From Gammaproteobacteria bacterium (lineage in GTDB: Bacteria > Pseudomonadota > Gammaproteobacteria > Pseudomonadales > Pseudohongiellaceae), in the NCBI GenBank assembly GCA_030831165.1, contig JAURLP010000021.1:1-64000 (forward strand): DNA of 64,000 bases, in the 5' to 3' direction. A model generated the notes under the pieces. The model was not told where the DNA came from, did no database searches, and saw nothing but the letters and a program-made list of their open reading frames with translations. Positions 47,065 to 50,465 of this stretch are shown in pieces. The stretch's first letter is position 1, and each line of letters opens with the position of its first letter. The translations under genes and the position numbers were made by a program.

Positions 47065-48192
47065 ATGTCATCAACAAGCGACTTATGCAGTGAACTAATC
47101 TCTCGACCATCTGTTAGTCCTGATGATCAGGGCTGTCAGGAAATACTAGCTGTGCGTCTTGAAAAACTCGGATTTAACATTGAACACCTGCCCTTTGCTG
47201 ATGTTAAAAATCTATGGGCCAGGCGTGGTGAAGCAGCACCGTTATTTTGTTTTGCCGGGCATACCGATGTTGTACCCGCAGGCAATATAGCTGACTGGCA
47301 GTCTGACCCCTTCAGCCCGACAATAAGAGACGGTTTACTTTACGGGCGTGGTAGTGCTGATATGAAAGGTAGCCTTGCCGCAATGATCACAGCCTGTGAG
47401 AGTTTTCTGGAACAGAATTCTCAATTTAACGGCTCAATAGCTTTCCTGATTACCAGTGATGAAGAAAGTGTTGCCACTCATGGCACTGTTAAAGTCATCG
47501 AAGAGCTGCAAAAAAGAAATGAACAAATAGATTATTGCGTCATCGGCGAGCCTTCCAGTAACAAAAAACTTGGCGATATTGCCAGAAATGGAAGACGGGG
47601 TTCCTTAAATGGACGCTTGAAAGTTAAAGGCAAGGAAGGTCATGTCGCCTATCCTGAACTGGCGATAAATCCCATTCACGTTTTTTTACCGGCACTGGCT
47701 GAACTAAGTCAAATTGAATGGGATCAAGGCAATGATTATTTTCCGGCTACCAGCTTTCAGATATCGAACATATCTGCCGGCCAAGGCACCAATAATGTTA
47801 TTCCAGCTGAAATGTCCTTGTTGTTTAATTTCAGATTCTCAACCGAAGTAACAGCGGAAGGCTTGAAAGCGCAAGTGCACTCAATATTTGATCACCATTA
47901 CGAGGATTACGAGCTTGAATGGCAGCTGTCCGGCAATCCTTTTATTACCGAGGTCGGGGTACTAACAGATGCTGTCACAAAAAGTGTAAAAACGGTGACT
48001 GGCCTTAATTGCAGCTTATCCACAGGCGGGGGCACCAGTGATGGCCGCTTTATCGCCCCGACAGGCGCTCAGTTAGTTGAATTAGGTCCCGTTAATGCCA
48101 GTATTCATAAAAACAATGAGCATGTTTCGATTGCTGATCTTGATCAACTTGCACTTATTTATGAAGAAATTCTTAAAAAGATACTGCTTTAA
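47065..48192 (+). CDS. dapE: Succinyl-diaminopimelate desuccinylase
   Basis: M20-family di-zinc hydrolase releasing LL-diaminopimelate, used for peptidoglycan and lysine. Metal-binding motifs CFAGHTDVVPAG (about 67-78), YGRGSADMKGSLAAM (about 93-107), TSDEESVATHG and the C-terminal LGPVNASIHKNNEHV are intact. The 375 residues match the family. It overlaps rsmJ tail to tail by four bases. Confidence 0.96.
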   Translation: MSSTSDLCSELISRPSVSPDDQGCQEILAVRLEKLGFNIEHLPFADVKNLWARRGEAAPLFCFAGHTDVVPAGNIADWQSDPFSPTIRDGLLYGRGSADMKGSLAAMITACESFLEQNSQFNGSIAFLITSDEESVATHGTVKVIEELQKRNEQIDYCVIGEPSSNKKLGDIARNGRRGSLNGRLKVKGKEGHVAYPELAINPIHVFLPALAELSQIEWDQGNDYFPATSFQISNISAGQGTNNVIPAEMSLLFNFRFSTEVTAEGLKAQVHSIFDHHYEDYELEWQLSGNPFITEVGVLTDAVTKSVKTVTGLNCSLSTGGGTSDGRFIAPTGAQLVELGPVNASIHKNNEHVSIADLDQLALIYEEILKKILL

Positions 48193-48968
48193 ACAAACAC
48201 TTCAAAATGAGCCGTCTTACCTGGCACCACAAAGCTGGGTTTTATGCTACCTTTTCTAACCCTACTACCTGGCCGCTTGACCACAATCCTGTGTTTAGCA
48301 CAGCCTCTGGCTGCCTCAAGTAAACTATCACTGTCTTCATCAAAGCCAAGAACTTCCTGCAAAAGAGCGATATCCTTTTTTACACTGGCGTTTTTACTAC
48401 GTGGCGGGAACATCGGGTCCAAATAGATCACATCGGGTTTTGCCTGCTTGCCCTGTCTAATTTCCTCGAACCAATCCTGAGCTTTAGCATGATGTAAAGA
48501 CATCTTTTGCAATATATCATTTAAAGCCTGTTCACCTGTCTCAGCAGCTCTTTTTAAACCATCAAAAATCAGACTGTAAATGACAGGAGATTGTTCAATC
48601 ATCCTTATCTCGCAGCCCATACTGGCAAGTATAAAGGCATCACGGCCCAGACCAGCTGTCGCATCCAGAACATACATGGGTTCATGCTTGTTAAGACCAA
48701 CAGCTTTGGCCAGGCCCTGATGTTTACCAAAGCTGGCTTTGCGATATAGTAGTGAGGCATCCTGAAAATTTACACAGGTCGGCTGTTTATGAATCTCACC
48801 TGCTCTTAACTCCAGAGCACTCAGGGATAACCCTGCTTCATCAAGTTTTAATATATGGGTAAATTCAGCGTTCTGACTTGAATCGACTAAAGGCAATTGG
48901 GTGACTTGCTTGATGCTTTCACAATAAGCAGAATCAAGGTCGCCCTCAAAAACTAAGGCTATTTTCAT
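48189..48968 (-). CDS. rsmJ: 16S rRNA (guanine1516-N2)-methyltransferase RsmJ
   Basis: SAM-dependent methyltransferase for m2G1516 of 16S rRNA. Motif I VLDATAGLGRDAFILASMG (about residues 100-118), the catalytic-loop motif YLDPMFPPRSK and the KRPGSRV segment are diagnostic of RsmJ (YhiQ). I chose the ATG at 48968, with an AGGTG site nine bases upstream, over a GTG four codons earlier. The gene diverges from the GntR-PurM gene, and the 26-bp palindrome lies 18 bases upstream of its ATG. Confidence 0.93.
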   Translation of the reverse strand: MKIALVFEGDLDSAYCESIKQVTQLPLVDSSQNAEFTHILKLDEAGLSLSALELRAGEIHKQPTCVNFQDASLLYRKASFGKHQGLAKAVGLNKHEPMYVLDATAGLGRDAFILASMGCEIRMIEQSPVIYSLIFDGLKRAAETGEQALNDILQKMSLHHAKAQDWFEEIRQGKQAKPDVIYLDPMFPPRSKNASVKKDIALLQEVLGFDEDSDSLLEAARGCAKHRIVVKRPGSRVRKGSIKPSFVVPGKTAHFEVFV

Positions 48969-48985
48969 TGAGCTAAGCACCTGTA

Positions 48986-49011
48986 ATCTGTATCATGCGC
49001 ATGATACAGAT
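48986..49011. promoter_or_regulatory. Perfect 26-bp palindrome, candidate operator
   Basis: The half-site ATCTGTATCATGC (48986-48998) is followed with no spacer by its exact reverse complement (48999-49011). It lies in the short divergent region between rsmJ and the GntR-PurM gene, ending 38 bases before the latter's ATG. GntR-family proteins bind as dimers to palindromes and often control themselves, so this is the likely operator of the fusion protein. The pairing is inferred from position. Confidence 0.65.
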
Positions 49012-49049: not shown

Positions 49050-50465
49050 ATGAAGCTTGAACTTGATAGCACCCTCTCCACCCCAATTTTCCAACAAATA
49101 GTTGATCAGATCCATTTTAAGGTTAACACAGGGGAACTTCAGCCTGGAGATAAATTACCCAGCATACGCAGTCTGGCAGAAGAGCACAGTCTCGCGGCCA
49201 ACACCGTGGTTAAGGCCTTCCGTCAACTCGAATTTCGGGGCCTGATTCAAGCAATGGACCGCAGTGGGTATATTGTTGCCAAACCGGATGAGAGCATAGG
49301 TCGTTATCAGGCCAGAGGCGTTTCATCAGACAAAAATGAAGTGCACCAGGTAGTCGACGGCCTGGATCACGGCCTTTTCTCCAATGCCTTTTGCAAAATA
49401 ACCGAAGACTATCTCACCGGCAATCCCGAGCAATGCAATGTCATCCATGCAGATGGCAGTGGGACCAAATCAATTATTGCCTACCTGGCCTATAAAGAAA
49501 GCAATGATACCAGTGTATTTCACGGTATTTCACAGGATTCCATTGTGATGAATCTGGATGATTTACTCTGCATTGGCGTCAATGGCCGCATTCTGCTTTC
49601 CAATACGGTTAATCGCAATGCCCTTAACTGCCCCGGTGAAGTGGTAGGAGCACTTATTCAAGGCAGTGAAAATTTTCTTAGCAAGCTACGCGAATTCGGT
49701 GTGAAAATTTATAGCGGTGGTGGTGAAACGGCAGATGTCGGGGACTTAACCGGGACTATAGTGGTTGATAGCTGCGCTGTTGCAGTGATGAAGAAGAAAG
49801 ACATCATCACTGGTGATTTAATAAAGCCTGGTTTAAGTATTGTCGGTCTCTCTTCAACCGGTCAAAGTTCCTACGAAAACAAAGCCAATAGCGGTATTGG
49901 CAGCAACGGATTGACCAGTGCAAGGCATGATATGCTAAGCAAATATTATGCAGAAAAATATCCGGAGACTTTCGATGCTAACGTATCAAGTGATCTGGTT
50001 TATTGCGGCCCCTACAAATTGGAAGACCCCCTCCCTGAATCAGATTTCACTGTCGGTGATGCGATTTTAAGTCCAACCAGAACCTATGCCCCGGTAATAT
50101 ACAAAATTCTTGAACAGCATCCCGGTCTTATTCAGGGTTTGATTCATTGCTCCGGCGGGGCACAGACAAAATGTTTAAAGTTTGCTGACAATGTTCACTT
50201 TATAAAAGACAACTTATTCCCTACTCCTCCAGTATTCAAGGCAATACAGAAGGCATCGAATACGCCTTGGAAGGAAATGTATAAGGTCTTTAACATGGGG
50301 CATCGTATGGAAGTGTTTTGCAAACCGGAGCATGCTGAAGTGGTCATGACGATAGCCAGCAGTTTTAATATAGACGCGCAGCTAATTGGCCGCACTGAAT
50401 CCAGTTCTGATGGTAACAAGCTTAGTTTATCGCATGCAGAAGAAGTCTTTGATTATAGGCCTTAG
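49050..50465 (+). CDS. GntR-type DNA-binding domain fused to a PurM-like (AIR synthase) protein
   Basis: One continuous reading frame of 471 residues. Residues 8-76 are a GntR winged helix of the YtrA-like type (GDKLPSIRSLAEEHSLAANT, then a GLIQAMDRSGYIVA wing). After a linker of about ten residues, positions 85-471 align from end to end with the Bacteroidetes-type phosphoribosylformylglycinamidine cyclo-ligase: RGVSSDKNEVHQ start, HADGSGTKS (136-141; counterpart of DGVGTK in E. coli PurM), GGGETADVGDL, SPTRTYAPV, HCSGGAQTK and YKVFNMGHRMEV. It could be an active enzyme that also binds DNA, or a repressor using the PurM fold to sense a purine intermediate such as FGAM, AIR or ATP. An AGGT ribosome site precedes the ATG. 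No other purine gene lies nearby. Confidence 0.9.
   Translation: MKLELDSTLSTPIFQQIVDQIHFKVNTGELQPGDKLPSIRSLAEEHSLAANTVVKAFRQLEFRGLIQAMDRSGYIVAKPDESIGRYQARGVSSDKNEVHQVVDGLDHGLFSNAFCKITEDYLTGNPEQCNVIHADGSGTKSIIAYLAYKESNDTSVFHGISQDSIVMNLDDLLCIGVNGRILLSNTVNRNALNCPGEVVGALIQGSENFLSKLREFGVKIYSGGGETADVGDLTGTIVVDSCAVAVMKKKDIITGDLIKPGLSIVGLSSTGQSSYENKANSGIGSNGLTSARHDMLSKYYAEKYPETFDANVSSDLVYCGPYKLEDPLPESDFTVGDAILSPTRTYAPVIYKILEQHPGLIQGLIHCSGGAQTKCLKFADNVHFIKDNLFPTPPVFKAIQKASNTPWKEMYKVFNMGHRMEVFCKPEHAEVVMTIASSFNIDAQLIGRTESSSDGNKLSLSHAEEVFDYRP

Follow-up and report, generated by a model that had tools for sequence, protein, structure and literature searches.

A single gene in the DNA stretch analysed here (the window, 64,000 nucleotides in length) encodes a GntR-type winged-helix DNA-binding domain fused to a complete PurM, and we consider it likely that the product is a self-repressing AIR synthase, a bifunctional enzyme-repressor of the trigger enzyme kind. 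PurM is the AIR synthetase (EC 6.3.3.1), which uses FGAM and ATP to form AIR. The idea of a trigger enzyme or feedback repressor had been raised in the preliminary description of the locus, and it is strengthened by a conserved operator on the promoter of the fusion gene itself. The features of the locus are collected in Table 1.

Table 1. Features of the GntR-PurM locus. Positions refer to the window, except in the last row, where the locus is named.
Feature	Position	Strand	Basis or remark
GntR-PurM fusion gene	49050..50465	+	ATG start, single open frame, 471 aa
GntR-type winged-helix DNA-binding domain, residues about 8-76	49071..49277	+	Pfam GntR and AF2 model
Linker, residues 77-84 (8 residues)	49278..49301	+	Orthologue alignment; pLDDT about 71-80
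Complete PurM/AIR synthetase, residues 85-471	49302..50462	+	phmmer, Foldseek, retained residues; Bacteroidota-Verrucomicrobiota type
Perfect 26-bp palindrome ATCTGTATCATGC/GCATGATACAGAT, predicted autorepressor operator	48986..49011	.	Conservation, one per genome
Operator core CTGTATCA-N6-TGATACAG	48988-49009		
Predicted -35 hexamer TTGAGC	48968..48973	+	Promoter scan; spacing in orthologues
Predicted -10 hexamer TATCAT, within left operator arm	48991..48996	+	Promoter scan; spacing
RsmJ-like SAM methyltransferase, divergent neighbour	48189..48980	-	Pfam SAM_MT 213.6 bits
Divergent PurN-type formyltransferase (MKISFLASHGGSSA...)	L167 1495-2076 (G000:C25:90466-91041)		

The open reading frame, Pfam and phmmer agree with the original account of a GntR winged helix (residues 8-76) and a full-length PurM (85-471) in one frame. 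Pfam GntR matches residues 15-76 with 47.1 bits against a cut-off of 27 bits (E 1.8e-12), and AIRS (125-246) and AIRS_C (260-453) both exceed their gathering cut-offs. The best solved homologues retrieved by phmmer were two Bacteroidetes PurMs, each matched at full length: 3mdo from Parabacteroides (fusion residues 84-462, E 1e-138) and 3kiz from Cytophaga (residues 82-461, E 1e-135). An AlphaFold2 model built on 26 aligned sequences (mean pLDDT 88.7) begins with a winged helix, which a short linker joins to a PurM fold; the winged helix comprises helices at 13-26, 39-45 and 50-62 and a wing formed by strands 66-68 and 74-76, with pLDDT of about 80-90. When the model was compared with the PDB using Foldseek, 3mdo was the top match (TM 0.97 of target, rmsd 1.2 A), followed by further AIR synthetases. 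The C-terminal part thus has AIRS and AIRS_C over its full length and the PurM fold. Across fusion orthologues the helix-turn-helix residues are strongly conserved, and the linker differs in both length and sequence.

The GntR-PurM fusion forms a family that is conserved and patchy in its distribution, and it is not a one-off. It is present in 23 of 137 genomes of the source organism's family, with an open frame on a single contig in 22 of these (one truncated by the contig end) and a frame split across two contigs in 1. Among 392 genomes sampled from the order there were 3 additional fusion genomes, all in a second family; samples drawn from the class and the phylum yielded no more. When named genomes were scanned, the fusion turned up in other gammaproteobacterial MAGs, one of which was deposited as SAR86 cluster bacterium NORP41 (89%), and at full length in one Polyangiaceae (Myxococcota) MAG (59% identity). 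Because the contig of the latter has 70% GC and the gene a GC3 of 0.90, it does not resemble gammaproteobacterial contamination. A frameshift or sequencing error had been raised as a concern in the preliminary description; a chimeric contig or two adjacent genes read as one would be further artefacts of this kind. Nothing about the fusion gene favours such an artefact, and the same open fused frame recurs across many independent assemblies, among them 21 further family contigs on which it is free of stops at 66-93% identity; we therefore rejected this explanation, the probability of which is negligible. One MAG contains a second, C-terminally aberrant copy near a contig end (L179, G142:C94) in addition to a full copy elsewhere, and this extra copy is probably the result of an assembly or strain mixture.

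The PurM half had been described as being of Bacteroidetes type. Bacteroidetes do share this type, but among unfused PurMs those of Opitutales/Verrucomicrobiota are closest (54-66% identity), followed by Bacteroidota (53-58%). A maximum-likelihood tree built on the PurM part groups the gammaproteobacterial fusions together beside Opitutales and sets Bacteroidota apart in a clade of their own, and Bacteroidetes were rejected as the direct donor on this placement; the deepest splits of the tree are weakly supported (91/35). The Polyangiaceae fusion groups with Verrucomicrobiota (99/98). The AU test does not clearly reject a single clade of all fusions (p 0.057), and the shared operator favours a single origin of the fusion.

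A second, ordinary purM next to purN was looked for in the source organism's genome (2.3 Mb, 98% complete) and was not found. No PurM in this genome exceeded the cut-off of TIGR00878, the NCBIfam PurM equivalog model, and apart from the fusion there was one weak match only, which from reading its sequence we take to be a ThiL-like protein. The fusion is the only PurM found in 20 family genomes, including that of the source organism, so that in these a PurM of foreign type, as had been suggested, stands in place of the gammaproteobacterial enzyme. Every fusion genome of genera g1-g3 lacks canonical PurM, and both forms occur together in 3 of the 23 family genomes (G038, G039 and G072). The rest of the family genomes have canonical PurM only or no PurM, the latter being mostly incomplete assemblies. 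The fusion is likewise the sole PurM in the fusion genomes of the second family that were tested and in the Myxococcota genome. Canonical PurN is absent alongside canonical PurM in all 8 fusion-only genomes tested, which carry a divergent PurN-type formyltransferase instead, while genomes with canonical purM retain purMN. PurL and PurE were found in all 6 fusion genomes tested.

Because PurL, PurE and a PurN-type gene are present in the fusion genomes tested, the PurM step (step 5) is expected to be required in these organisms, and, as their sole PurM, the fused protein almost certainly catalyses AIR synthesis, which by genomic inference would make it a metabolically required enzyme. A comparison of residues among E. 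coli, canonical, Bacteroidota and fused PurMs showed that D65, G66, G68, T69, K70, D86, D94, E141, N192 and H247 (E. coli numbering), among others, are retained in the fusion. In the alignment, K27 and H190 of E. coli are replaced by H and G, respectively, throughout the Bacteroidota/Verrucomicrobiota type; since the whole type differs at these positions, we argue for activity from the fact that this type is the PurM of those phyla. The fusion scores 112.3 bits with TIGR00878, below its 236.35-bit cut-off, as do the PurMs of both unfused Verrucomicrobiota genomes tested and of 1 of 14 control genomes. The model misses this type of PurM, and we therefore do not read the low score as excluding a PurM function.

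The start codon of the fusion gene lies 38 bp past the palindrome. The locus has in common with GntR regulators both a winged helix above the Pfam cut-off and a palindrome near its own promoter. The operator core, with 0-1 mismatch, was found upstream of all 22 family orthologues for which upstream sequence was available, within about 85 bp of the start codon and with variable flanks. Each of 18 whole genomes contained exactly one site at 0-1 mismatch, always before the fusion, and a reversed-pattern control gave 0 sites at this stringency in the same 18 genomes. Sites with 2 mismatches occurred sporadically in these genomes and all 4 that were inspected fell within coding sequences (for 3 of the 4, a related gene in genus g1); a purine regulon controlled by the palindrome was rejected for this reason. 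Fusions outside the family also carry the operator, and in the Myxococcota copy it is nearly identical, reads CTGTATTA-N6-TGATACAG and abuts the start codon. In one divergent fusion (L177 / G372:C7) the left arm is degenerate and only the right arm is recognisable.

A promoter scan of the window, independent of the spacing count in orthologues, predicted TTGAGC-17-TATCAT. Among 27 orthologue promoters, TTG is found exactly 17 nt before the TATCAT of the operator in 13, with five of these promoters coming from close relatives and so not independent, and 18 nt before it in 3 more; other spacings were seen 0-2 times. The predicted -10 box lies within an operator arm, so that the operator covers the -10 box in the geometry of a blocking repressor, and the fusion probably represses its own gene.

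Natural variants of the locus tie the GntR domain to the palindromic site and suggest specific binding. In MED690/G489 (L069 / L176), both operator arms are altered symmetrically to CTGTACTA-N6-TAGTACAG, and the recognition-helix residue N51, which is invariant in 17 aligned family orthologues, is changed to D; this covariation comes from one genome. At the corresponding locus of G473, flanked by hisH-hisF and a PilT-like gene, PurM is unfused, and the operator is missing along with the GntR domain. In G072 and in the second family (L180, L181, L149, L068, L069, L084), hisH-hisF and the fusion are divergent, and the PilT-like ATPase gene, where found at these loci, is downstream of the fusion. 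The product of hisHF releases AICAR, a purine intermediate. The RsmJ-like neighbour in the window is not part of the system; in the second family hisH-hisF takes its place.

Under the self-repressing synthase that we propose, the C-terminal part would be the only AIR synthetase of the cell, and dimerisation through the PurM fold would set two N-terminal GntR winged helices on CTGTATCA-N6-TGATACAG. Surplus fusion protein on the operator would then cover the -10 box and block its own transcription. Catalysis, dimeric DNA binding and repression are all properties that we infer from the sequence, which gives autorepression good support. What the genomes offer in favour of a trigger enzyme is an enzyme that appears to be required (the sole PurM, with PurL and PurE present) and, on the same polypeptide, a DNA-binding domain with an operator. 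Occupancy of the PurM active site by FGAM and ATP, or by the product AIR, may in addition alter the affinity for DNA, which would match enzyme output to substrate supply. By analogy, control of DNA binding by FGAM, AIR or ATP is plausible, and this ligand control and its direction are the least certain part of the model.

Several other explanations bear on parts of this model. The preliminary description had also suggested a regulator in which the PurM part is a catalytically dead sensor, which would make the fusion a purine analogue of Bacillus PurR. A winged helix joined to an inactive purine-enzyme fold does have a precedent in Firmicutes PurR (PMC8789054), but the fusion is the only PurM in at least 20 genomes, PurL and PurE are present in those tested, the conserved PurM residues are intact, and no regulon was found past the fusion's own gene. 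Given the sole-PurM status and the retained residues the dead sensor is not supported, and we regard it as highly improbable. A GntR domain that is vestigial or structural, with a palindrome that serves something else, is just as doubtful. The PurMs of Verrucomicrobiota and Bacteroidota and the syntenic copy in G473 do without a GntR domain, but the operator tracks the fusion across families and even into another phylum, is missing at G473 and, in one genome, has changed together with the recognition helix, and the helix-turn-helix residues are highly conserved. A fusion that activates its own promoter would be in keeping with hexamers that depart from consensus (TTGAGC/TATCAT, 9/12), but the site spans the -10 box and the probable start region, where a blocking repressor is usually positioned, and activation is accordingly very unlikely. 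A function in defence was rejected, as PADLOC gave no defence-system match for the fusion.

If the self-repressing synthase is accepted, the remaining choice concerns what it senses. A one-gene homeostat, in which PurM senses the saturation of its own active site (FGAM/ATP or AIR) and sets its own transcription, is a tentative proposal that we hold at somewhat less than even chances. Rather unlikely, though a serious contender, is autoregulation that is blind to ligands, in which PurM is active and the GntR domain keeps the protein level constant through negative feedback, with neither substrate nor product being sensed. A single operator on the fusion's own promoter would suffice for such concentration homeostasis, and a linker that is variable in length and sequence is not suggestive of a rigid allosteric relay. 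However, as in trigger enzymes that depend on substrate (PMC8249747), the DNA-binding domain is part of the enzyme polypeptide and not a separate regulator.

Several known systems resemble the fusion in part. PutA, BirA, NadR and PepA of E. coli K-12 are trigger enzymes, which catalyse a reaction and also act as repressors; PutA targets the operator region of its own gene and is bound to DNA when its substrate is absent (PMC8249747). Like these proteins, the fusion appears to be an active metabolic enzyme with a DNA-binding, repressing role; unlike them, it involves a different enzyme, pathway and DNA-binding domain (a GntR winged helix), and its predicted target is its own promoter only. Firmicutes PurR consists of a winged helix-turn-helix and a PRT-like domain without enzymatic activity, and it controls a large purine regulon (PMC8789054). 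PurR and the fusion both pair a winged helix with the fold of a purine enzyme, but the enzyme part of the fusion is the sole PurM and is predicted to be active, and one operator was found. The fusion shares with MocR, GabR and PdxR an N-terminal GntR winged helix on a large enzyme fold, and PdxR and MocR profiles as well as GabR structures are among the matches of its GntR part. In those regulators the enzyme fold is aminotransferase-like and generally acts as a sensor, whereas in the fusion it is PurM and apparently required for catalysis. The DNA-binding domain also resembles YtrA-like short GntR regulators (best short-GntR matches 6sbs and 3by6), but PurM takes the place of their small C-terminal helical dimerisation domain. 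The PurMs of Bacteroidota (3mdo, 3kiz) and Opitutales are of the same type as the PurM half, to which they are about 52-66% identical, but they lack the GntR domain, and the operator was not found at six Verrucomicrobiota loci that were scanned.

No GntR-PurM protein or purine-synthesis trigger enzyme of such architecture was found in the open-access literature. The fusion offers an intact operator-domain pair for testing, with natural controls at hand in the genomes that have both enzymes, the unfused, operator-less syntenic copy and the covarying operator variant. Because TIGR00878 rejects the fused PurM, annotation pipelines may report purM as missing and miscall the hosts as purine auxotrophs. 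To our knowledge no purine-biosynthesis trigger enzyme has been described before, and the fusion, an acquired PurM joined to a GntR domain, would be the first. The routes to purines and thiamine part at AIR, and the homeostat, if true, would provide enzyme-intrinsic feedback at this node in lineages that have lost the ordinary purMN pair.
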